DNA of 9,289 nucleotides from an uncultured Oscillospiraceae bacterium (GTDB lineage Bacteria; Bacillota; Clostridia; Oscillospirales; Oscillospiraceae), in contig CAKTQE010000073.1 of NCBI GenBank assembly GCA_934593275.1, positions 1 to 9,289 on the forward strand. Direction: 5' to 3'. This document shows, piece after piece, positions 1-9,289 of this stretch. Position 1 is the first letter of the stretch; every line of letters begins with the position of its first letter. The notes under the pieces were generated by a model that saw nothing but the letters and a program-made list of their open reading frames with translations, was not told the origin of the DNA and did not search any database. Made by a program: the position numbers and the translations under genes.

Positions 1-51
1 TATAGCACATGAATTTAAAAAAGTAAAGTTTTTATGTTAACACTCTAGTAG

Positions 52-70
52 GGGCGGCAACCTGCCGCCC
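52..70. repeat. Short GC-rich palindrome
   Basis: Arms GGGCGGCA (52-59) and TGCCGCCC (63-70) pair perfectly over 8 bp with a 3-nt loop. The surrounding sequence is AT-rich, so the hairpin stands out. Similar GGGGCGG-type palindromes are scattered between genes in gut Clostridia (recalled, not searched). There is no T-run after it, so it is not an obvious terminator. Confidence 0.6.
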
Positions 71-90
71 GCCACGTTTCGAATACAACC

Positions 91-114
91 TGTGTGGTTG
101 AATGAAACCACACA
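91..114. repeat. Hairpin, 9-bp perfect stem
   Basis: TGTGTGGTT (91-99) pairs with AACCACACA (106-114) around a 6-nt loop. It lies between the GC-rich palindrome at 52-70 and the dispersed repeat at 120-154. No T-run follows and I assign no function. Confidence 0.5.
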
Positions 115-119
115 TCGAC

Positions 120-154
120 ATGTCATTCCGAAACGGAGGAGTCGAGGAATCTTC
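120..154 (+). repeat. Dispersed repeat, left copy (half-element)
   Basis: The unit begins ATGTCATTCCGA (120-131) and ends GAGGAATCTTC (144-154), with a short CGGAG-containing centre. The same outer blocks occur in inverted orientation at 2219-2260, so the two copies bracket the nuclease gene. This TGTCATTCCG...GAGGAATCTTC type is a familiar intergenic palindromic repeat in many bacterial genomes (recalled). No target-site duplication is visible at its edge. Confidence 0.6.
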
Positions 155-200
155 CAGAGTCCCGTGTTTTTCAAAGAAGAACCGGTCCATAAGACAAATG

Positions 201-241
201 GAAAAGCTTTTCTTGACAGATGATGTTCGATTGATGTTCGA
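201..241 (+). promoter_or_regulatory. Palindrome, -35-like box and tandem 11-mer upstream of nuclease
   Basis: A perfect 12-bp palindrome GAAAAGCTTTTC (201-212) is followed at once by TTGACA (213-218). Two tandem copies of an 11-mer then follow: TGATGTTCGAT (221-231) and TGATGTTCGAC (232-242). The -35-like hexamer has no credible -10 at 16-18 nt, so I do not call a second promoter. The arrangement could be protein-binding sites for control of the promoter about 80 nt downstream; this is inference only. Confidence 0.3.
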
Positions 242-316
242 CGCAAAATGCACCCGAGCATCACCTTTCTTTGTTTGATTGTATTTTCAACAGAAAGTAA
301 TGAACCATTACAATGA

Positions 317-345
317 TTGCTATCTTTTTTCTTACGTGCTATACT
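317..345 (+). promoter_or_regulatory. Sigma-A promoter for the nuclease gene
   Basis: The -35 box is TTGCTA (317-322) and the -10 box is TATACT (340-345), with a 17-nt spacer. TGC just before the -10 box gives an extended -10 (TGnTATACT). Transcription would start near 352, giving an untranslated leader of about 55 nt before the ATG at 407. The position and strand fit the only plus-strand gene in the window. Confidence 0.6.
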
Positions 346-406
346 TGGTGAAGAGATACACGAATAGCAAGCAATGAAAAAGTTGGACTCTCGTTGGAGG
401 TAGCTA

Positions 407-2140
407 ATGAAAAGAATGAGTACAGACCCAACAAAATATGTAGTGTTCGATGTTGAAACCAACGGATTAAAGTCACGTCGGAATGATTTACTCTCAATTT
501 CACTTTATAAACCTGATGATAATAAGGAATATAGCAAGTTTTTGCCATTGGAAAAGAATAATAAGATTACTACAACCCGTTTTAATGGTATTACAGATAA
601 AGATTTAGTTGGTGCAACTGCACTCACTCAAGAAGAATTCGATTATATTGTTGAAGAATTTGAATTAGAACGAAGAACAATTTTGGTTTATTCTGGAAGA
701 GAATTTGATCAGCAGTTTCTTTCTGAATATATGAAAAATCATGGCCTTACCGGATTCGATAAATTGAAGTTTTATAATTTTAAGAAGAATATCATATCTT
801 CGCGTTTTTCGACTGGGAACTTAACGAAAGACAATTTGTGTACCATTTTTAAGATTGAGGGTGTTCAAACCGTTCACAGTAGTGTAAACGATTGCAGACT
901 TGAGTGGAAGCTGTTTGAAAAAATGGGTGGAGATTATTATCTTGTTACAGAGGCCGCGGGAAAAAGTGAGGACATAGTTTTTAGACTTAACGAAAATTAT
1001 ATTATTCCAGTCAGTCTCCTGTCCTCTCATCCACATCTAAGCGCAGTACTTTGCGATAGGCCATATATTGATTGTCAAAGTACCCTTATCAAATCGTTTG
1101 AAATCAAAGCAAAAGGAATTGAAAAATTCGGGATGAATACTGATGGAATAATAATCGAACATTTGATAAAGTCCATGCTAAAAGCCGAAACACAGTATCC
1201 ACAGGCGTTCTTAAAAAGAAACAAAATGAAACTGGATTTCATCGGAAGAATTCCAAATGGGAAAACGGTAATTCCTGTATTACCTAATTCAGACGGAACA
1301 TACAGTGCAATAAATAAAGAAGATCAACCAGCTGTAACACGTTGGAATGCCACCCTATTAAACATCAAAAGGCAAATCTTGCCGCTGATAGAATATATTC
1401 AAACCGAAATTTTTGAAAGTTCCCCTCTGTTATCACAGGAGCTTGTGGTTGATTCCGACTACAATATGCTTGCACTATGTGATATTTCCTCCCCGAAAGC
1501 AGTACTAGAGATAAAGACAAATACGATTGATCCATCAGGCTATAAAGAACAGCTCTTTTACGAGTCCAGGGGAAGGGATATTTATTACATGAACATGGAG
1601 CGGATAAACGATTGGAAAACCAATTTGCCCAAAAAGATGATTATAAATATTTTTTCTGTGGATGCTCACATTGGAGATCCAGACTCTCCACACTGGTATA
1701 AAGGAAAAAGAGAAAGCCAGCGAGCAGATCGAATAGATGAGCTTAACAAGTATTTTTTATCATCAGATTTGTCCTTGATTTCCTTTAAAAATGTAAGTTC
1801 CCCTATAAAAGTGCGATGTAAGATTTGTGAGTTTGAATGGACTGTTCGTTATAAAACAGTCATGCAGCAAATCCCGGAGTGTCCGAAGTGCAAGCCAAAA
1901 CTTAGCATTGAGGAAAAGGCAAAATTATCCGAAGAAGAACGGATTAAAATCCGAGCGCAAGACTACTACGAAAGAATACTTCAAAAGAGCAATAATACTA
2001 TAGTTGCAGTTAATTTTACTGGATCAAAAGAAAATGTAGATGCAATGTGTACCATTTGTTGCAATAAATGGAGTATCAGAGCTGACCATTTACTGAATAG
2101 ATGTTGGTGTCCCAAATGCAAAAGTCAGAAAACCAGATAA
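407..2140 (+). CDS. DEDDh exonuclease / PD-(D/E)XK nuclease / double zinc-ribbon fusion protein
   Basis: The protein has 577 residues and three parts. Residues 10-175 form a DnaQ-like 3'-5' exonuclease with all DEDDh residues visible: D15 and E17 in FDVETNG, D101 in the GREFD segment, and H157 with D162 in HSSVND. Residues about 245-415 carry a PD-(D/E)XK signature: D359, then E368-I-K370 (VLEIKT), then a QLFY motif at 382-385 as in RecB and Cas4 nucleases. The tail has two Cys4 zinc ribbons, C471/C474/C492/C495 and C548/C551/C568/C571, each with an aromatic Trp after the first pair and a CPKC end, probably binding nucleic acid. The ATG at 407 is preceded by GGAGG at 6-nt spacing; Met4 is an alternative. 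No signal peptide or membrane segment is seen, so it should be cytosolic. The gene is monocistronic and far more AT-rich than the operon to its right, which suggests acquisition. I know no named family with this order; a role in defence or mobile DNA processing is inference. Confidence 0.85.
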   Translation: MKRMSTDPTKYVVFDVETNGLKSRRNDLLSISLYKPDDNKEYSKFLPLEKNNKITTTRFNGITDKDLVGATALTQEEFDYIVEEFELERRTILVYSGREFDQQFLSEYMKNHGLTGFDKLKFYNFKKNIISSRFSTGNLTKDNLCTIFKIEGVQTVHSSVNDCRLEWKLFEKMGGDYYLVTEAAGKSEDIVFRLNENYIIPVSLLSSHPHLSAVLCDRPYIDCQSTLIKSFEIKAKGIEKFGMNTDGIIIEHLIKSMLKAETQYPQAFLKRNKMKLDFIGRIPNGKTVIPVLPNSDGTYSAINKEDQPAVTRWNATLLNIKRQILPLIEYIQTEIFESSPLLSQELVVDSDYNMLALCDISSPKAVLEIKTNTIDPSGYKEQLFYESRGRDIYYMNMERINDWKTNLPKKMIINIFSVDAHIGDPDSPHWYKGKRESQRADRIDELNKYFLSSDLSLISFKNVSSPIKVRCKICEFEWTVRYKTVMQQIPECPKCKPKLSIEEKAKLSEEERIKIRAQDYYERILQKSNNTIVAVNFTGSKENVDAMCTICCNKWSIRADHLLNRCWCPKCKSQKTR

Positions 2141-2155
2141 ATGACTTAAAAAAAC

Positions 2156-2236
2156 CGGAGTCGAGAAATCCACTCAAGTGGCAGATTTTACCTTGTGTTG
2201 GTATTTTTCTGCCACGTAGAAGATTCCTCCACTCCG
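2156..2236 (+). repeat. Long imperfect hairpin after the nuclease gene
   Basis: The arm starting CGGAGTCGAG (2156) and ending GTGGCAGA (to about 2185) pairs, with mismatches, with the arm from TCTGCCAC (2209) to CTCCACTCCG (2236). The stem starts 15 nt after the stop codon. It could end or stabilise the nuclease transcript, but no T-run follows, so it is not a standard intrinsic terminator. Its right arm is shared with the dispersed repeat at 2219-2260. Confidence 0.5.
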
Positions 2237-2260
2237 CTTGCGCTGCGGTCGGAATGACAT
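2219..2260 (-). repeat. Dispersed repeat, right copy (inverted relative to 120-154)
   Basis: Read on the minus strand this copy starts ATGTCATTCCGA and ends GGAGGAATCTTC, matching the outer blocks of the copy at 120-154. Its centre differs and contains a small GCTTGCGCTGCGG palindromic segment. With the left copy it forms an inverted pair about 2.1 kb apart around the nuclease gene. Confidence 0.6.
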
Positions 2261-2291
2261 AATGGGGGGACGTTTATTGTATTTTCGGTAA

Positions 2292-2334
2292 CGGTTCCGT
2301 ACTTTCGGGTGCGGAACGGCACATAGGCCGTTCC
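2292..2334. repeat. Two overlapping, mutually exclusive hairpins
   Basis: TTCCGTAC (2295-2302) can pair with GTGCGGAA (2309-2316, one G-T pair). GGAACGGC (2313-2320) can pair with GCCGTTCC (2327-2334). The two stems share GGAA, so only one can form at a time. I see no gene downstream that this could control, so it is probably another dispersed palindromic repeat. The rest of 2261-2450 holds only weak inverted repeats. Confidence 0.45.
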
Positions 2335-2450
2335 CTACGGTTTCGCTGATTGGCGGGCGTTTTCAACCGGGGGATTCTAAGGACGGGCGGAGCAACGTTT
2401 CATATTGTAGGAACAGCTGGCGCAAAAGGGCCACGTCCGTCCCCCAATAA

Positions 2451-2520
2451 TTGTCAATTGTCCATTGTCAATTCGGAAATAACTGTCAACTGTCAACTGT
2501 CAACTGTAAACTGTCAACTG
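2451..2520. repeat. Tandem heptamer repeat array
   Basis: Two blocks of heptamers are visible. TTGTCAA/TTGTCCA/TTGTCAA (2451-2471) is followed, after an 11-nt break, by about five CTGTCAA-type units (2483-2517), one reading CTGTAAA. On the minus strand the unit reads TTGACAG, which contains a consensus -35 hexamer. The array lies just past the end of the minus-strand operon. Its length probably varies between strains by replication slippage. Confidence 0.75.
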
Positions 2521-2525
2521 CAAAC

Positions 2526-2571
2526 CCGCCCCCAACCTCCGGATTCTCTCCGTTGTCTGGGGGCGGTTTTT
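2526..2571 (+). terminator. Terminator-like stem-loop between converging transcripts
   Basis: CCGCCCCCA (2526-2534) pairs with TGGGGGCGG (2558-2566) over 9 bp and is followed on the plus strand by TTTTT (2567-2571). It would stop plus-strand readthrough from the nuclease unit just before it runs into the operon. On the minus strand it begins seven bases past the larC stop codon, but only GGGTTTGC follows the stem, so termination in that direction would be weaker. It may work in both directions. Confidence 0.6.
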
Positions 2572-2572
2572 A

Positions 2573-3376
2573 TTACGCTTCGCATTCCCCCAGCATTGCT
2601 CTGAGGCAATTGGCGGCGGGGAAATCTTTGGTGCCCAGGCCGTAGCCGATGGCGGTTACGGTCATGGTGGGGAGGACACCGTAGGATGTGACGAACTGGC
2701 GCAGCAGGGCGGCACCGGTGGGGGTGCAGAGTTCGCCGGGGATGTCACCGGCCCGGATGGGGACGCCCAATAGGATTTGGGCGGTGGCGGGGGCGGGGAC
2801 CGGGAGAATGCCGTGGGCGCAGCGGATTTTGCCGTAGCCCACCTGTACCGGGGAGGCAACGATTCTCTCCGGGGCCAGCTGCTCCAAAAGATAGCACACG
2901 GCGGTAATATCCGCCAGGGCATCCAGGGTGCCTACCTCATGGAAGTGGATTTGGTCTACGGGAACCCTGTGGACCAGGCTTTCCGCCTGGGCGATGCGCG
3001 CATAAACCCCCAGAATCTGGGCCTTTACGGCATCGGACACGGACAGGGTCTGGACCGTCTGGCGGATGTCTGCCATGGCGGTGTGCCTGTGGTGGTGTTC
3101 CTGCCCGTGGTCATGGTGATGGCCCTGTTCCTGGTGGTGTTCGTGCTGGGGGAGATCCTTGCTGGGCTGCTCCTCCTGGCCCAGGACGGTGACGTGGATG
3201 TGGGTGCCGGAAATGCCGCATTTGCTGCCCCGTTCCATGGAAAATTGGGTGTGGGGCAGACCCAGGCGGTTCAGCTGTTCCAGGGCCGCTTCCCGGTCCG
3301 GCATCAGTTCCAGCAACGCGCCGGTGAGCATGTCACCGGCGGCACCCATGCCCAGGTCCAGATAAAGGGTTTTCAT
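2573..3376 (-). CDS. larC: LarC N-terminal domain protein (LarC1-like), no LarC2 half
   Basis: LarC inserts nickel into the pyridinium bisthiocarboxylate pincer cofactor of lactate racemase and related enzymes. This 267-residue protein covers only the first part of that family (the fused form is about 400 residues). Visible family features are the start MKTLYLDLGMGAAGDM, a His-rich segment at 78-98 with 10 His that suits nickel binding, IHFHEVGTLDALADI (143-157), ELCTPTGAALL (215-225) and GYGLGTKDFP (244-253). It ends at the usual LarC1 boundary, LRAMLGE. The LarC2 part, which binds CTP in the characterised Lactobacillus protein, is missing: both other frames after the stop run into repeats without a NIDDM-like motif. 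AGGAGG lies 4 nt before the ATG, and the capF stop is 8 nt upstream, so it is co-translated as the last gene of the operon. Partner genes larB and larE are not in the window. It could be a remnant or rely on a LarC2 encoded elsewhere. Confidence 0.85.
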   Translation of the reverse strand: MKTLYLDLGMGAAGDMLTGALLELMPDREAALEQLNRLGLPHTQFSMERGSKCGISGTHIHVTVLGQEEQPSKDLPQHEHHQEQGHHHDHGQEHHHRHTAMADIRQTVQTLSVSDAVKAQILGVYARIAQAESLVHRVPVDQIHFHEVGTLDALADITAVCYLLEQLAPERIVASPVQVGYGKIRCAHGILPVPAPATAQILLGVPIRAGDIPGELCTPTGAALLRQFVTSYGVLPTMTVTAIGYGLGTKDFPAANCLRAMLGECEA

Positions 3377-3384
3377 AAAGCCTC

Positions 3385-4581
3385 CTATACGGGTTCAAAG
3401 AAGGTATCAGGCCGTGCGGGGTCGAAAATTTCGTTGCAGGTCATGACCGTCACCAGGTTTTCGGTTTGGCTCAGATTGATGATGCTGTGTGTCCAGCCGG
3501 GGATCATGTGGACGGCCTCGATGTGGTCGCCGCTGACTCGGAATTCTACCGTTTCCCCGGTGTGGATGTTCCGCTCCCGGATCAGGCCCTGGCCGCTGAC
3601 CACGATAAACAGCTCCCACTTGGAGTTGTGCCAGTGCTGGCCCTTGGTAATACCGGGCCGGGAAATATTGACGCTGACCTGGCCGCAGTCGGCGGTGTGG
3701 AGCAGCTCTGTAAAGCTGCCCCGGTCATCCCGGTTCATGGTCAGGGGGAACTTGAATTTGTCGGTGGGCAGATAGGTCAGGTACAGGGAATAGAGCTTTT
3801 TGGCAAAGCTGCCCTGGGGCATTTTGGGCATCAAAAGAGTCTCCGGCTGGGCCTTGAAAGACAGCAGCAGCTCCACGATCTCCCCCAAAGTGACCTTGTG
3901 GGTCACGGGGACGCAGCAGTACCGGCCCTGGGGGGTCAGCACCGTCTCCACGCCCTCAAACTCGCAGCGTTGGGGTCTTCCCTCCAGCAAATCAAAGAGA
4001 CCCTCAATCAGGTCGTCAATGTACAGTAGCTCCAATTCCGTGGAGGGGTCGTTGACGGTATAGGGCTGGTCGTTGGCCACGGCCCAGCAGAAAGTGGACA
4101 CGGCACTGTTATACTTGGGGCGGCTGTGGCCCATCAGGTTGGGGAACCGGTAGACAAATACCGAGGCCCCGGTTTCTCTGCCATAGTCAAAGAACAGCTC
4201 CTCACCGGCCTTTTTGCTCTTGCCGTATTCGCTGGTGCCGAAGCGGCCGGACAGGGTGGCCTGGATGGAGGAGGAGAGCATCATGGGGGCTTTGTTGCCG
4301 TGTTTTTTCAGGCATTCCAGCAGCTGGGAGGCAAAGCCAAAGTTGCCCTTCATAAAGTCCTCCGGGTTTTCCGGACGGTTGACCCCTGCCAGATTGAACA
4401 CAAAGTCCGCCTTCCGGCAGTATTCGTCCAATTCCTCCGGGGTGGAGGACAGGTCATATTCGTAAATTTCCCGGATGTCCAGGCCGGGCCGGGTGCGGTT
4501 TTTGCCGTCCCGGAGGTTTTTCAGGTTGTCCACCAGGGCGGTTCCCACCATGCCCTTGGCACCGGTGACGAGAATATTCAT
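3385..4581 (-). CDS. capF: CapF/WbjC-type UDP-sugar epimerase-reductase (third sugar step two of UDP-L-FucNAc pathway)
   Basis: This bifunctional enzyme acts second in UDP-N-acetyl-L-fucosamine synthesis. In characterised CapF the cupin domain epimerises C3 of the CapE product, and the SDR domain then reduces the 4-keto group with NADPH, giving UDP-N-acetyl-6-deoxy-L-talosamine. The 398-residue protein has both halves. The Rossmann SDR part has TGAKGMVG (6-13), a SSS segment (103-105) and YGKSK with Y119 and K123. The C-terminal cupin (about 280-390) has KGQHWHNSKWELF, with candidate metal ligands H316, H318 and E323, and H365 in GWTHSIIN. It is slightly longer than the roughly 370 residues of Staphylococcus aureus CapF. 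The ATG follows the capG stop by 4 nt, with AAAGGG 8 nt before it, so the two are translationally coupled. It acts in the cytosol. Confidence 0.92.
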   Translation of the reverse strand: MNILVTGAKGMVGTALVDNLKNLRDGKNRTRPGLDIREIYEYDLSSTPEELDEYCRKADFVFNLAGVNRPENPEDFMKGNFGFASQLLECLKKHGNKAPMMLSSSIQATLSGRFGTSEYGKSKKAGEELFFDYGRETGASVFVYRFPNLMGHSRPKYNSAVSTFCWAVANDQPYTVNDPSTELELLYIDDLIEGLFDLLEGRPQRCEFEGVETVLTPQGRYCCVPVTHKVTLGEIVELLLSFKAQPETLLMPKMPQGSFAKKLYSLYLTYLPTDKFKFPLTMNRDDRGSFTELLHTADCGQVSVNISRPGITKGQHWHNSKWELFIVVSGQGLIRERNIHTGETVEFRVSGDHIEAVHMIPGWTHSIINLSQTENLVTVMTCNEIFDPARPDTFFEPV

Positions 4582-4585
4582 TGAC

Positions 4586-5761
4586 TCAGCCCTTTCTCCA
4601 AACCATTTTGTTGACCACGCCTACGTAGCTCTGAATGAGCTTGACCACCTTGTCCGATACGTTTTCGTCCACGTAGTTGGGAACCGGCAACCCAAAGCAG
4701 CCGTCCTTTACCATTTCCACGGCCACGTCCACGGCTTGCAGCAGACCCTTTTCGTCAATGCCGGAGAGGATGAAGCCCGCCTTGTCCAGAGATTCCGGTC
4801 TCTCGGTGGAGGTGCGGATGCACACGGCAGGGAAAGGATGACCTACGGAAGTAAAGAAGCTGCTTTCCTCCGGCAGGGTTCCGGAGTCGGAGACCACGCA
4901 GAAAGCGTTCATTTGCAGGCAGTTGTAGTCATGGAAGCCCAAAGGCTCATGCTGGATGACCCGGCGGTCCAGCTGAAAGCCGGAGCTTTTCAGCCGCTTT
5001 TTGGACCGGGGATGGCAGGAATAGAGAATGGGCAGATCGTACTTTTCCGCCATGGCGTTGACGGCCCGGAACAGGGACAGGAAGTTCTTTTCCGTGTCAA
5101 TATTTTCCTCCCGGTGGGCGGAGAGCAGAATGTATTTTCCTTTTTGAAGCCCCAGTCGGGCATGAATATCGGAGCTTTCGATATAGGGAAGATTCTGGTG
5201 CAGCACCTCTGCCATGGGGGAGCCGGTGACATAGGTCCGCTCCTTGGGAAGCCCTGTGTCCGCCAGATACCGGCGGGCGTGTTCGGAGTAGGCCATGTTC
5301 ACATCGGAGATGATGTCCACGATCCGGCGGTTGGTCTCCTCCGGCAGACACTCATCTTTGCAGCGGTTGCCCGCCTCCATGTGGAAAATGGGGATGTGCA
5401 GCCGCTTGGCACCGATGACGGACAGGCAGCTGTTGGTATCTCCCAGAACCAGCACCCCATCGGGCTGGGTGACCACCATAAGCTTATAGGACTCGGAAAT
5501 GATATTGCCCATGGTCTCCCCCAGGTCCGCGCCTACGGCGTTGAGGTAGACCTCCGGGTCGTCCAGGCGCAGGTCGTGGAAGAAGACACCGTTCAGATTG
5601 TAGTCGTAGTTCTGCCCGGTGTGGGCCAGGATCACGTCAAAATACCGGCGGGTCTTGTTGATGACCGCCGCCAGACGGATGATTTCGGGCCGGGTACCCA
5701 CAATAATCAAAAGCTTTAACTTTCCGTCATTGCGGAAAGAGACATTGCTGTAATCTGCCAT
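4586..5761 (-). CDS. capG: CapG/WbjD-type UDP-sugar 2-epimerase (final step to UDP-L-FucNAc)
   Basis: This is a non-hydrolysing UDP-GlcNAc 2-epimerase family member (GT-B fold). In CapE-CapF-CapG pathways this member inverts C2 of UDP-N-acetyl-6-deoxy-L-talosamine to give UDP-L-FucNAc. Motifs in order over 391 residues are GTRPEIIRL (22-30), HTGQNYD (47-53), LGDTNS (107-112 region), HMEAGNR (127-133), PEETNR (140-145), SAHREEN (214-220), SDSGTLPEES (291-300) and RTSTERPE (316-323). The last segment is typical of the WbjD/FnlC/CapG branch rather than of plain WecB, and the adjacent capF supports that choice. The ATG at 5761 has AAAGG at about 10-nt spacing. The 42-nt gap from the acyltransferase is the largest in the operon, and no convincing internal promoter is seen in it. 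Confidence 0.9.
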   Translation of the reverse strand: MADYSNVSFRNDGKLKLLIIVGTRPEIIRLAAVINKTRRYFDVILAHTGQNYDYNLNGVFFHDLRLDDPEVYLNAVGADLGETMGNIISESYKLMVVTQPDGVLVLGDTNSCLSVIGAKRLHIPIFHMEAGNRCKDECLPEETNRRIVDIISDVNMAYSEHARRYLADTGLPKERTYVTGSPMAEVLHQNLPYIESSDIHARLGLQKGKYILLSAHREENIDTEKNFLSLFRAVNAMAEKYDLPILYSCHPRSKKRLKSSGFQLDRRVIQHEPLGFHDYNCLQMNAFCVVSDSGTLPEESSFFTSVGHPFPAVCIRTSTERPESLDKAGFILSGIDEKGLLQAVDVAVEMVKDGCFGLPVPNYVDENVSDKVVKLIQSYVGVVNKMVWRKG

Positions 5762-5803
5762 GAGAAAACAACCTTTCGTTTTTTATAATACCGTCTGCCG
5801 GTC

Positions 5804-6478
5804 TTAAATGCGTTCTTGGGTCCAGTCGATGTTCTGCCGGACCTCCCGGGCGGGGATACCGGCCAGAACGCAGTTGGGGGTGGTGTATTGCCTGGACAGC
5901 AGCCCCCTGGCACCTACCACACAGCCATCGGGGATTTGCGTCCCCTTTAAGATGGTGGCACCGGTACCCACCCATACATGGTCTCCAACGGTGACGGACC
6001 GGGAGGGGTTGATGCGCTTGCCGGTGGCTTTATCCAGAATGCTGTGGGAGTCTCCGGTGCGGATGCGGACGGGGCTGGAAAACAGGCAATCCCGGCCAAT
6101 GGTGATTTGGGTTCCCTCCATGGCGGCCAGCTGGATGTCTCCCCGCAGGGCGGTGTGTTCTCCCAGGGTGATGGTGTTTCCGTCATCCTCGATCCAGAAG
6201 TCCGCGTTTTCGCAGTGACACCAGGGGCCGATGACCACGGTGTTTCCGGTACCCTCAATATGGAACCGGCAGTTTTTCAGTCTCGCGTAGTCTTCAACCA
6301 CCAGGGTGTTTCCCGGCCCGCCGGAGATGTTGCAGCCCTTTATATAGGAAAGGCCGGTATCCAGTTTGATTTTCCCATGAATCTTATTTACAAAGGGAAA
6401 ACGGTTGTGCATGGAAAAAAGAAAGCGAAAAAGGCCCATGTGGTTTTGGGTCAGGGCCAATGCCTGTTCCTTGTTCAT
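5804..6478 (-). CDS. Left-handed beta-helix (hexapeptide repeat) acyltransferase
   Basis: The 224-residue protein is built mainly of hexapeptide-type turns, for example VVIGPWCHC, ITLGEHTALRG, ITIGRDCLFSS, VTVGDHVWVGTGATILKG and IPDGCVVGARG. These define acetyl-CoA-type acyltransferases (LbH fold) that usually work as trimers. The segment RTGDSHSILD (140-149) has the DSH arrangement seen in polysaccharide O-acetyltransferases, making H145 the likely catalytic base. The end, LAGIPAREVR, is the usual exit from the helix. AAGGAG overlaps the capE stop codon (TAAGGAG) and lies 7 nt before the ATG, so translation is coupled. It sits between capE and capG, which suggests it acetylates FucNAc or the finished glycan, much as CapH does in S. 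aureus type 5 capsule. That parallel is by position and class only, and the acceptor cannot be read from the sequence. Confidence 0.85.
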   Translation of the reverse strand: MNKEQALALTQNHMGLFRFLFSMHNRFPFVNKIHGKIKLDTGLSYIKGCNISGGPGNTLVVEDYARLKNCRFHIEGTGNTVVIGPWCHCENADFWIEDDGNTITLGEHTALRGDIQLAAMEGTQITIGRDCLFSSPVRIRTGDSHSILDKATGKRINPSRSVTVGDHVWVGTGATILKGTQIPDGCVVGARGLLSRQYTTPNCVLAGIPAREVRQNIDWTQERI

Positions 6479-6489
6479 AGCCCCACTCC

Positions 6490-7536
6490 TTACAGGTGGC
6501 GGATGCCGGCCAGTTCTTCCCGAACATAGTCGGTGGTCAGCAGCTTCTTGACGGTACCCTCTACATCCAGTCTTGTGGTGTTGTGGCTGGTGTAGGCCTC
6601 GTCGGCTTCGGTGTGTACCTGGCCCTGGACCACGAATTTGTCATAGTTTAAGTCCCGGCTGTCGGCGGCGACCCGGAAATAATCTCCCATGTCTTGGGCG
6701 CGGAGCCGCTCTTCCCGGGTCATCAGGGTCTCACAGAGCTTTTCGCCGTGGCGGGTGCCGATGATGTTGGTGCCGGTGTCTCCGAACAGCTGCTGCACGG
6801 CCTTGGCAAGGTCTCCGATGGTGGAGGCATCGGCCTTTTGGATAAACAGGTCGCCGGGATTGGCGTGGAGGAACGCAAAGCGCACCAGTTCCACCGCCTC
6901 GTCCAGGTTCATGAGGAACCGGGTCATGTTGGGGTCGGTAATGGTAATGGGTTTGCCTGCGTGAATCTGGTCAATGAAAAGGGGAATGACGCTGCCCCGG
7001 GAACACATGACGTTGCCGTAGCGGGTGCAGCAAATGGTGGTGCCGCCCCGTTCCGCGGCCACCCGGGCATTGGCGTAAATCACATGCTCCATCATGGCCT
7101 TGGAAATGCCCATGGCGTTGATGGGATAGGCGGCCTTGTCGGTGGACAGGCACACCACCCGCTTGACCCCGGCATCGATGGCGGCATGGAGCATATTGTC
7201 GGTACCCTCAATATTGGTCTTGACCGCCTGCATGGGGAAAAACTCACAGGAGGGGACCTGCTTCAGGGCGGCGGCATGGAAAATGTAGTCCACCCCAGGC
7301 ATGGCATCCCGGATGGATTGGAGGTCACGGACATCGCCTACGTAAAATTTGACCTTGGAGGCGGTGTCCGGGTGGGCGGCCTGGAGCTGGTGGCGCATAT
7401 CGTCCTGCTTTTTCTCATCCCGGGAGAAAATGCGGATCTGGCCAATGTCGCTGTCCAGGAAGTGCTTCAAGACGGTGTTGCCGAAAGAGCCGGTACCGCC
7501 GGTGATCATCAAAGTCGCGCCGGAAAATTCTGACAT
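6490..7536 (-). CDS. capE: CapE/WbjB-type UDP-GlcNAc 4,6-dehydratase/5-epimerase
   Basis: This extended SDR enzyme starts the UDP-L-FucNAc route by dehydrating UDP-GlcNAc at C4-C6 with inversion at C5. The 348-residue protein matches the family length. It has the NAD(P)-binding loop TGGTGSFG (12-19), GDVRD (67-71), FHAAALKQVP (86-95), and the catalytic segment STDKAAYPINAMGISKAMME (131-150). In that segment D133 and K134 are the dehydratase pair, while M142 replaces the Tyr of the usual YxxxK and K146 is kept. This MGISK variant is characteristic of CapE relatives as opposed to PseB/FlaA1, and supports the assignment. The ATG follows the glycosyltransferase stop by 2 nt, with AAAGGA inside the upstream gene's last codons as ribosome binding site. 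It acts in the cytosol and supplies CapF. Confidence 0.92.
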   Translation of the reverse strand: MSEFSGATLMITGGTGSFGNTVLKHFLDSDIGQIRIFSRDEKKQDDMRHQLQAAHPDTASKVKFYVGDVRDLQSIRDAMPGVDYIFHAAALKQVPSCEFFPMQAVKTNIEGTDNMLHAAIDAGVKRVVCLSTDKAAYPINAMGISKAMMEHVIYANARVAAERGGTTICCTRYGNVMCSRGSVIPLFIDQIHAGKPITITDPNMTRFLMNLDEAVELVRFAFLHANPGDLFIQKADASTIGDLAKAVQQLFGDTGTNIIGTRHGEKLCETLMTREERLRAQDMGDYFRVAADSRDLNYDKFVVQGQVHTEADEAYTSHNTTRLDVEGTVKKLLTTDYVREELAGIRHL

Positions 7537-7538
7537 AG

Positions 7539-8654
7539 TTATATTCCTTTCTGTAGGTCCGCCAGAATGCGCAGATGGTCGGCGGCCATGGTTTCTATTG
7601 TATAGGGGCGAATGGATTGCAGTGCCGCGGCCCCCAGGGCGGCGGTGTTGGGAATGGCCTCGGTAATGGCCTGACGCAGGGCGTGGACGTTTTCGGAGGG
7701 GACCAGATAGCCGTTTTCACCGTTTTTGATCAGTTCCAACCCGGCATTGCAGCGGTTGGTGGTAATGACCCCCAGGCCGTAGGCCATGGCTTCCGCAACT
7801 ACCAGCCCCCAGATGTCCTCCCGGGTGGGAAGAACAAACAGGTCTGCCGCCAGGTAGTAGTCTTCCAATTGCTCCTTGGTCTTGAAGCCCACGAAATGGA
7901 CGTTGGTCAGATCGTTTTCCCGGGCGTAGGTCATGTATTCTTCCGTAGGCTCTCCGCCCACGATGTAAACGCCGATGTGCTTGTCCAGGGTGTTGACGGC
8001 TCCCAGAAGAATGTCAAAGCCTTTCCGGGGAATGAACTGGCCGATGGAGAGGATCATTTTCTCCTCCGGGATGTGAAGCTTCTTTCGGTACTGCTGCTTT
8101 TCTTTAGGAGAAATGGGGGCGGGCAGAATGTCCGATTCCCGCAAAGAGGAAAAATGATACCGCCGCAGAGCCTCCTGGGTGGCACCGTAGTGCAGATAAT
8201 ACCGGTCCAGCTCCCGGCAGGTGGACAAATACAGCCGCGCCCCCCGGATGGACTGGGCTTTCAGCCACTCCTTTGGCCCGCCGCCGTTTTTTACAAAGGC
8301 ACCGTCTGCCTCCAGACAGTAGGGGATCCGTCTGGCCTTGCACCAGAAGATGGCCAGAAGCTCCGTGGGTGAAGAGTTGCCGGAAATAATAATGGCATCC
8401 CAGTCCTTTGTCAGCCAGGGTAGCACCCCAGGACAAATGGCCTTATCCACATCCGTGGAGCGACCCTTTAAAAACACGGTCTCGTAGCTTCCCTGCTGCG
8501 GAGCCGTCCACTTCTTGTCCCGCTCCGCGGAGGCATGAAGCTGATACAGCACAGTAAGCTGACACAACCGACTCATCTCGTCAAAAAACGCCACCCGATA
8601 CGGTGACGGCACATTGGCCAAAAACAAAACCCGGGGCATTAACTTTCCCCCCAT
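7539..8654 (-). CDS. GT4-family glycosyltransferase
   Basis: The protein has a GT-B fold glycosyltransferase layout. Its N-terminal Rossmann half starts PRVLFLANVPSPYRVAFFDEM, and the linker-to-C-terminal half has SIGQFIPRKGFDILLGA, the donor-binding loop of family GT4. In TREDIWGLVVAEAMA an Asp replaces the first Glu of the EX7E motif, which is common in this subgroup. The likely donor is UDP-L-FucNAc made by the genes downstream; this is inferred from context. No membrane segment is visible, so it should act at the inner membrane face. The reading frame is open up to an ATG at 8690, but that would lie only about 8 nt from the predicted transcription start and has no ribosome binding site. 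I chose the ATG at 8654, which follows GGGGGAGG by 4 nt; 8639 (MPRVLF), where homologues usually begin, is nearly as good. It is the first gene of the operon. Confidence 0.85.
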   Translation of the reverse strand: MGGKLMPRVLFLANVPSPYRVAFFDEMSRLCQLTVLYQLHASAERDKKWTAPQQGSYETVFLKGRSTDVDKAICPGVLPWLTKDWDAIIISGNSSPTELLAIFWCKARRIPYCLEADGAFVKNGGGPKEWLKAQSIRGARLYLSTCRELDRYYLHYGATQEALRRYHFSSLRESDILPAPISPKEKQQYRKKLHIPEEKMILSIGQFIPRKGFDILLGAVNTLDKHIGVYIVGGEPTEEYMTYARENDLTNVHFVGFKTKEQLEDYYLAADLFVLPTREDIWGLVVAEAMAYGLGVITTNRCNAGLELIKNGENGYLVPSENVHALRQAITEAIPNTAALGAAALQSIRPYTIETMAADHLRILADLQKGI

Positions 8655-8704
8655 TCGGCCTCCCCCTTTCGCCGCTTCCCAAAACGGCATCGTATATTAA
8701 GGTG

Positions 8705-8734
8705 ATTATACCACAGTAAAACGGAAAGTGTCAA
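8705..8734 (-). promoter_or_regulatory. Consensus sigma-A promoter of the operon
   Basis: On the minus strand a perfect -35 TTGACA (8729-8734) and a perfect -10 TATAAT (8705-8710) are separated by 18 nt. TGG before the -10 also gives an extended -10. Transcription should start near 8698, leaving about 44 nt of leader before the chosen ATG at 8654. This is a strong promoter by sequence, and the only good one found for the six-gene operon. Confidence 0.85.
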
Positions 8735-8744
8735 CAAGTTGACA
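8729..8744. promoter_or_regulatory. 16-bp palindrome over the -35 box, possible operator
   Basis: TGTCAAC-AA-GTTGACA (plus strand) is a perfect palindrome with 7-bp arms and a 2-nt centre. It covers the whole -35 hexamer. A regulator dimer bound here would block RNA polymerase, so repression is the simplest guess. The half-site TGTCAAC also resembles the heptamer unit at 2451-2520, so it could be a repeat fragment instead. Confidence 0.45.
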
Positions 8745-8789
8745 AGCCACAGGGGAGAATTCCCAATTCGGGGAGTGGTATGCGGCCTT

Positions 8790-8927
8790 GGCTCCCCTGA
8801 AAGGGGAGCTGGCTCGGCGCAGCCGAGACTGAGAGGTTGCTTTTCGGCACGAAAAGCCTCTGCCGCAGGCAGAATACGGGCGTTCTTTCCTTTCAGTGAC
8901 GGAAACCATTTGTCAGCTTTGCTGACA
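8790..8927. repeat. Cluster of five short perfect hairpins
   Basis: Perfect stems with tiny loops follow each other: GCTCCCCT/AGGGGAGC (8791-8809), CTCGGC/GCCGAG (8813-8827), GCTTTTCG/CGAAAAGC (8839-8857), TCTGCC/GGCAGA (8859-8873) and TGTCAGC/GCTGACA (8911-8927). This resembles the intergenic GGCTCCCCT...AGGGGAGC repeat family of Faecalibacterium-like genomes (recalled). It lies upstream of the operon promoter. No gene or credible open frame overlaps it. Confidence 0.65.
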
Positions 8928-8960
8928 GCTTCTCTGTTCGGAAGACCAAGAGCCTACGTG

Positions 8961-9072
8961 GTACGCCGGAAGAGACTCGGTACATGATGGTGTCGCAGCG
9001 TTTAGCCGCTGCGATGGAACTGCCACTGGCAGTTCCATTTAGATGGTTCGAGTCCCTTCCGGCGCGTTGTAC
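8961..9072. repeat. Nested palindromic element with three-way-junction fold
   Basis: An outer stem pairs 8964-8979 with 9049-9064 at 15 of 16 positions. Inside it sit two perfect hairpins: TCGCAGCG/CGCTGCGA (8993-9014) and TGGAACTGCC/GGCAGTTCCA (9015-9037). GTAC flanks the outer stem on both sides (8961-8964, 9069-9072). The right arm contains GGTTCGAGTCC (9045-9055), which looks like a tRNA T-arm, but the rest does not fold as a tRNA. It could be a small non-autonomous element or a structured RNA. Confidence 0.55.
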
Positions 9073-9211
9073 CGCAGGGGGGAGAATTCTGCCCACACCC
9101 CTACGGGGTGCGTTCAGAATTCTCGGGACTCTCCCACGGGCTAAAAACACTCCACCGGAGTGTTTTTACGGCAGCTGCGCTGCCGCCGCCCTTTCGAGTC
9201 CCTTCCGGCGC
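9047..9211 (+). repeat. 19-nt direct repeats enclosing a hairpin module
   Basis: TTCGAGTCCCTTCCGGCGC occurs exactly at 9047-9065 and 9193-9211, and its inner part is also inverted at 8964-8979. Between the direct copies are GAGAATTCTG/CAGAATTCTC (9082-9124), enclosing CACCCC/GGGGTG (9096-9110), then AAAAACACTCC/GGAGTGTTTTT (9143-9167), which looks like a bidirectional terminator, then CGGCAG/CTGCCG (9169-9185). Repeated modules with one shared end suggest accretion or insertion at the same motif. Confidence 0.6.
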
Positions 9212-9216
9212 AAAAA

Positions 9217-9250
9217 GGGGCTGTCTCACTAAAAGGCAGCCCCCCAAAAA
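9217..9250. terminator. Stem-loop with flanking A-tracts, possible minus-strand terminator
   Basis: GGGGCTG (9217-9223) pairs with CAGCCCC (9237-9243). The A-tract on the left side (9212-9216) reads as TTTTT after the stem on the minus strand, so it would end a transcript entering from beyond the right edge. A second A-run follows at 9246-9250. It could end a minus-strand gene outside the window. Confidence 0.45.
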
Positions 9251-9258
9251 AGCAAAGG

Positions 9259-9285
9259 CCCGGCTCTTGCGTAGAGCCGGGTTTT
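9259..9285 (+). terminator. Intrinsic terminator-like hairpin
   Basis: CCCGGCTC (9259-9266) pairs perfectly with GAGCCGGG (9274-9281) around a 7-nt loop, and TTTT (9282-9285) follows on the plus strand. No plus-strand gene precedes it in this window. On the minus strand the stem is followed by CCTTTGCTTTTTT, so it may equally serve a minus-strand gene to the right. Confidence 0.55.
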
Positions 9286-9289
9286 GGCG

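Follow-up and report, generated by a model that had tools for sequence, protein, structure and literature searches.

Two nuclease sites and a variable tail in one chain: a candidate family of bacterial exonucleases

What might a bacterium gain from a protein that carries two different nuclease sites in a single chain? The question is raised by a 9,289-nucleotide stretch of DNA (the window) from an uncultured Oscillospiraceae bacterium (GCA_934593275.1, contig CAKTQE010000073.1, positions 1 to 9,289), in which an initial annotation, made from the letters alone, described a fusion of a DEDDh exonuclease, a PD-(D/E)XK nuclease and two zinc ribbons. We consider it possible, with a probability of roughly 45%, that this chain, with both nuclease sites complete and two Cys4 ribbons, is a two-strand exonuclease that destroys linear foreign DNA. 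The gene and its parts are as follows.

407..2140, + strand: two-nuclease gene (DEDDh, PD-(D/E)XK-type domain and two zinc ribbons), 577 amino acids (aa), ATG start; from the open reading frame (ORF), homologues and a structure model
431..937, + strand: DEDDh (DnaQ-like) exonuclease domain, residues 9-177, catalytic D15, E17, D101, H157 and D162
938..1678, + strand: PD-(D/E)XK-type domain, residues 178-424, with G247, E251, D359, E368, K370, Q382 and Y385; from the model (pLDDT 92.8), alignments with RecE, MGME1, Cas4 and lambda exonuclease, and conservation
1784..1897, + strand: zinc ribbon 1 (C471, C474, C492, C495), DUF723-like; from profile matches and conservation
1994..2131, + strand: zinc ribbon 2 (C548, C551, C568, C571); from profile matches and conservation

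Conservation of the two sites and extent of the family

Alignment of the window protein with 60 of 120 listed homologues, picked as full-length and spread, showed all five DEDDh residues (D15, E17, D101, H157 and D162) to be invariant across the 61 sequences, and likewise G247, E251, D359, E368, K370 and Q382 of the second domain. The initial annotation had named the same five residues and a D-x8-ExK plus QLFY core, found here as D359-x8-E368-x-K370 and at 382-385, and had judged both sites intact; the catalytic residues and their conservation bear it out on each point. Of 7,999 candidates scored, 756 proteins reached E <= 1e-3. In the best 120 of these, which are the closest relatives, the DEDDh five are intact in 117/117 and the E, D, E-x-K, Q signature of the second domain is kept in 117/118. 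A genomic scan with two peptide patterns gave 80 pattern matches resolving to 68 loci (a lower bound; L numbers below denote loci). Among the 57 of these whose match starts at residue 20 or less and reaches 390 or more, the DEDDh site is intact in all 57 and the second signature in 52. For four close pairs of relatives, the ratio of nonsynonymous to synonymous substitution rates (dN/dS) was 0.14, 0.08, 0.15 and 0.05, with a single set of three loci supplying the first three pairs; the two members of a fifth pair were identical. Purifying selection acts in the four pairs. Given this selection and the 756 matching proteins, the architecture is not a product of chance.

No whole-protein family emerged from Pfam, NCBIfam, PADLOC or PHROGs, which name generic pieces only; PADLOC gave no system-specific match, just a generic CRISPR-associated DEDDh model over residues 12-170. 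The earlier remark that no named system has this order thus held in the profile scans. Among the papers listed in a search of the open-access literature, no title or abstract opening had the DEDDh, PD-(D/E)XK and ribbon architecture, which is weak evidence of absence. As no named family was found, the two nuclease types and zinc tail in one chain appear to define an unnamed one.

By record title, the 68 loci belong mostly to Clostridia, Bacilli, Erysipelotrichia and Coriobacteriia, with Bifidobacterium and Mycoplasma imitans in addition. Read with table 11, the M. imitans copy (L046, 9671-11305) is interrupted by a single in-frame TGA, within a 561-residue open frame. Mycoplasmas read TGA as Trp, so this copy may be one protein. 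In two Erysipelotrichaceae loci, a DEDDh-only gene (315 aa, with its own N-terminal part) lies directly 5' of the two-nuclease gene and overlaps it (L039, 7397-9614; L045, 9581-11798). Two members on separate contigs of the genome bin SRR8387719_bin.16 (L056 and L058) have a degenerate second site and an intact DEDDh site.

Domain resemblances and a proposed activity

Comparison of predicted structures gives the DEDDh domain an RNase-H-like exonuclease fold, with DNA enzymes as its closest matches (Pol III epsilon, PolC and Cas2-DEDDh). With Pol III epsilon, the PolC exonuclease, Cas2-DEDDh and ExoDinG it shares both the fold and all five catalytic residues, but none of these was matched here joined to a PD-(D/E)XK domain, and the window protein showed no sign of a Cas2, polymerase or helicase part (for Cas2, no match up to E 1 in Pfam or PADLOC). 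For the second domain, a second-look structure comparison placed RecE, MGME1, Cas4 and lambda exonuclease as the nearest solved folds, with ACE1 also near. The domain has in common with this clade a characteristic G-x3-E, D, E-x-K, Q-x2-Y signature, and its predicted fold may be that of the clade as well. It differs in giving no significant profile match (the YqaJ profile matched 1/52 members, E 0.022), in being fused behind a DEDDh domain and in having one conserved cysteine, C358, so the four-Cys iron-sulphur site of Cas4 proper is not present. The PD-(D/E)XK assignment is refined by these nearest folds, which are not those of a generic endonuclease.

The tail points to DNA binding. C471, C474, C492, C495 and C548 are invariant in the 61-sequence alignment, and conservation of C551, C568 and C571 reaches 90% or more. 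Eight cysteines in a repeated CxxC..CxxC ribbon and a match to PHROG 681 (E 2.7e-12) agree with a DUF723/CapR-type module; PF05265 is annotated on many homologues and falls below the cut-off in the window protein (14.3 of 20.9 bits). In PMC10448857, CapR and its relatives, the zinc domains DUF723 and DUF4379 (also printed DUF4397), appear as exchangeable DNA-binding beads of phage homing nucleases. Those enzymes carry the same repeated zinc module but other catalytic domains, and only region 411-575 is in common.

The initial annotation was right about two ribbons in this protein, which represent one tail type among several in the family. Among 55 rows including the window, 25 have two ribbons, 8 have one, 12 have a cysteine-free tail and 10 have none; L016 (a duplicate), L004 (a frame break ahead of the ribbons) and L037 (a contig end) were left out; L026 likewise reaches a contig end, and the ribbon is incomplete in L024 and L022. 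The cysteine-free tails read as helix-turn-helix or winged-helix, a label that is a sequence reading alone, since two helix-turn-helix-like tails (L034 and L040) had zero matches among the sequences of solved structures. On a core-only tree the tail class changes 17 times, against a mean of 26.6 and a minimum of 20 in 100 label shuffles, which indicates that tails are partly inherited and often unlike between tree neighbours. An N-terminal extension of about 150 residues is mostly confined to a single branch (the tree shows two changes) and occurs in most of L040-L059 (e.g., L044, 9527-10000). Separate zinc-ribbon (treble-clef type) repeat proteins recur within 10 kb of relatives in L016, L019, L020, L021 and L049.

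In the proposed mechanism, each nuclease domain would shorten one strand: the DEDDh domain at 3' ends, the RecE/MGME1/Cas4-like domain on the opposite, 5' strand. The zinc ribbons would keep hold of the DNA, with the tail as an exchangeable docking part. The DNA substrate, the two polarities and the joint action of both sites are what we infer. According to PMC11002302, the exonuclease of POLG (3'-5') and MGME1 (5'-3') clear linear mitochondrial DNA together, better than either alone, and the part played by MGME1 is debated. This pair, of which MGME1 ranks among the closest folds to the second domain, is the closest working analogy; in the window protein, one chain would have both activities. 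ExoDinG and EndoDinG bear the same two nuclease types singly, at the N terminus of DinG helicases (PMC11981726); the window protein, in contrast, has both, and the Pfam scan gave it no helicase. The DEDDy diDNases that occur in genomic islands of gram-positive bacteria were considered and set aside as a different subclass, which as described in PMC11706625 lacks the features of the window protein.

The base composition of the gene is foreign, with a GC content of 0.33-0.39 in windows within it and 0.54-0.63 in windows from 2251 onward; the earlier description of an AT-rich, stand-alone gene holds. Its most likely role would be that of an accessory, horizontally moved gene destroying linear foreign DNA, either of phages or plasmids or as fragments left by other defence systems. 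This role is favoured because of the signs of horizontal movement, the variety of tails and the company kept in some loci; a control gave it no support. More doubtful is the wider proposal of a two-way DNA shredder redirected by swapped tails (zinc ribbons, helix-turn-helix-like or none). Under it, the members would make up a family of single-gene immunity, as yet without a name, in Bacillota and Actinomycetota (many of them animal-gut by record title), which can join the Argonaute-based DdmDE plasmid defence as well. The 3'-5' and 5'-3' DNA exonucleases compared here are separate proteins or helicase accessories. If true, a compact enzyme that combines both activities with an exchangeable DNA-docking tail would clear linear DNA by a new design, and it would also be a candidate single-gene immunity and a possible tool enzyme; to our knowledge, few single-gene immunity systems have been characterised in such bacteria.

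Neighbourhoods and alternative explanations

Genes near the relatives were examined at 65 loci with 224 neighbours within two genes, leaving out L016, L067, L068 and ORFs below 100 or above 1,300 aa. PADLOC matches occur at 10 of the 65: JetD (L027), SduA (L015), SngB (L014), a type II restriction endonuclease (L048), a caspase-like protein (L012), PifA-like (L032), PDC-S19 (L037), PDC-S01 (L017), PDC-S41/AbiO/Nhi-like (L043) and DdmD/DdmE (L041), a figure derived from 20 of the 224 neighbours, picked by eye and scanned singly; the control was not measured identically, and the batch tables cover the 25 commonest of 155, 82 and 172 families. This count leaves aside L030, which has a homing-endonuclease-like match, and L006, where IetA matches weakly. 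Within up to 10 kb on each side, the commonest non-family cluster, an ABC transporter by look, is found at 8/68 loci, followed by recombinase-like clusters at 6 and 6. The plasmid-defence locus L041 is a tight array (2403-9856) of a DdmD-like gene (1,157 aa), a DdmE-like gene (579 aa) and, directly 3', a family member (744 aa), the genes being 1 and 4 bases apart. No DdmDE was noticed among the window's ORFs viewed by eye.

Several results weigh against a two-strand exonuclease for foreign DNA. The second active site is lost in 4 of the 57 relatives, so it is not always needed. An additional alignment left out the degenerate-site loci (L038, L056, L058 and L063) along with two near-identical to others (L016 and L036), so its invariant columns flatter the second site. 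The best second-look Z for this domain, 7.7, is at a level possibly reflecting just a common arrangement, and Foldseek returned nothing at E <= 1e-3 for it. Aligned by hhalign, the domain scored E 0.018 against YqaJ (probability 2.55, motif in register) and 0.91 against Cas4, and unrelated controls ranged from 0.024 to 0.92 (0.024 for the protein's own DEDDh part, 0.041 for the tail); automatic extraction of the YqaJ and Cas4 sets left some partial ORFs in them, and PF12684 members were too few for use. With non-significant scores nearly equalled by unrelated controls, hhalign was rejected as sequence proof of kinship with RecE, YqaJ or Cas4. The control stretches, arbitrary and not random (one contig per genome of the relatives, bases 5001-13000; 20 requested, 17 returned, 16 usable), held Cas1, Cas3, type II restriction-modification, PDC-S01 twice and PDC-S56 among 122 ORFs in 16 stretches of up to 8 kb. 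Since defence genes occur in the control too, enrichment near the family is not claimed; the defence island suggested by the neighbours was set aside, and the single-gene defence role proposed initially found no support there. Three recombinase/TraG-like queries drawn from the relatives' loci hit 11/68 loci (1.02 Mb) and 1/17 control loci (0.127 Mb), a similar density. DdmDE stands without the nuclease in three other intact loci and one fragment examined, and a partnership as a rule was dismissed, the nuclease being in just 1/4 intact loci.

Variation of the tail would fit a sequence-guided restriction-like nuclease, in which the ribbons read sequence or modification, the PD-(D/E)XK domain cuts first and degradation by the DEDDh domain starts at that cut. 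The 17 tail changes suit such a target-choosing module, and Cas4, which has exo- and endonuclease activities (PMC11981726), is among the nearest folds with ACE1. However, the best folds are RecE and MGME1, and RecE starts at DNA ends and digests their 5' strand (PMC11981726); 10 of the 55 rows are tailless; and no methyltransferase is apparent by eye among the window's ORFs, of which a family scan was not made. We regard this explanation as unlikely, but deserving of attention.

Many neighbours of relatives are housekeeping genes, and the mitochondrial POLG exonuclease and MGME1 are a maintenance pair (PMC11002302). Both would suit a routine genome-maintenance enzyme that acts on DNA ends or replication flaps and is carried accidentally by some strains. 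Such a role seems quite unlikely for a gene of foreign composition and variable tail that is found, at E <= 1e-40, in 1/384 genomes of one order, namely the centre genome chosen as carrier, all of which is unlike a core repair gene.

A free-standing homing or mobile nuclease spreading its own gene, like phage T5orf172 and HNH homing endonucleases with the same zinc tail, would account for the kinship with phage tails, for a patchy, AT-rich gene flanked by an inverted repeat-like element, and for the homing-endonuclease-like neighbour in L030. GMP_synt_C matches in 3/224 neighbours hint at a preferred site, and GMP synthase-like genes lie within two genes (e.g., L033, 7231-8757; L066, 6483-8108), possibly marking a recurrent insertion site. 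Yet both catalytic domains are exonuclease-like; HNH, GIY-YIG and LAGLIDADG are absent from the Pfam and NCBIfam scans up to E 1; PHROGs annotated as endonuclease and HNH endonuclease match the ribbons only (411-575 and 448-574), as do Enterococcus phage nucleases (432-575, 9 phage records). No relative was confirmed in 2.9 million viral contigs (two pattern scans; 6 and 453 pattern matches), and plasmid records gave none. Homing is accordingly very unlikely; viral origin was rejected, and the prophage residence raised by the initial annotation is unsupported.

Finally, an RNA- or cell-targeting toxin-like nuclease acting by abortive infection, with the DEDDh domain on RNA and the second domain on DNA, is highly improbable. 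In its favour, RNase T and ERI-type enzymes rank close to the DEDDh domain by fold, and the sequence of ISG20 matches weakly (E 0.18), but the nearest DEDDh matches are DNA enzymes, the zinc and helix-turn-helix-like tails point to DNA, and no neighbour cluster exceeds 8/68 loci, which means no conserved partner.

Sequence context of the gene

Four further features lie close to the gene.

396..400, + strand: GGAGG, likely ribosome-binding site, six bases 5' of the ATG; from sequence
317..345, + strand: promoter-like TTGCTA-17-TATACT with TG ahead of the second hexamer; weak
122..152, + strand: upstream copy of the repeat-like element GTCATTCCG..GAGGAATCT; from pattern search
2221..2258, - strand: downstream, inverted copy of the same element; from pattern search, inverted pair 138-154 / 2219-2235

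The promoter-like site is weak because positions 1-2700 hold 13 such sites where 6.3 are expected. Of the repeats said to surround the gene, the one inverted flanking element is borne out; the remaining pairs consist of short matches in two copies or belong to a local run at 2449-2529. The strict GTCATTCCG..GAGGAATCT pattern occurred in 0/159 fetched loci. The adjoining gene is presumably larC-like, followed by what we take to be a capsule or surface-sugar type cluster on the opposite strand (2573-8690, -). The best DNA matches of this cluster are 72-79%, in one order. Beyond it, an exact 19-base direct repeat, TTCGAGTCCCTTCCGGCGC, at 9047-9065 and 9193-9211 flanks an imperfect palindrome at 9082-9124.
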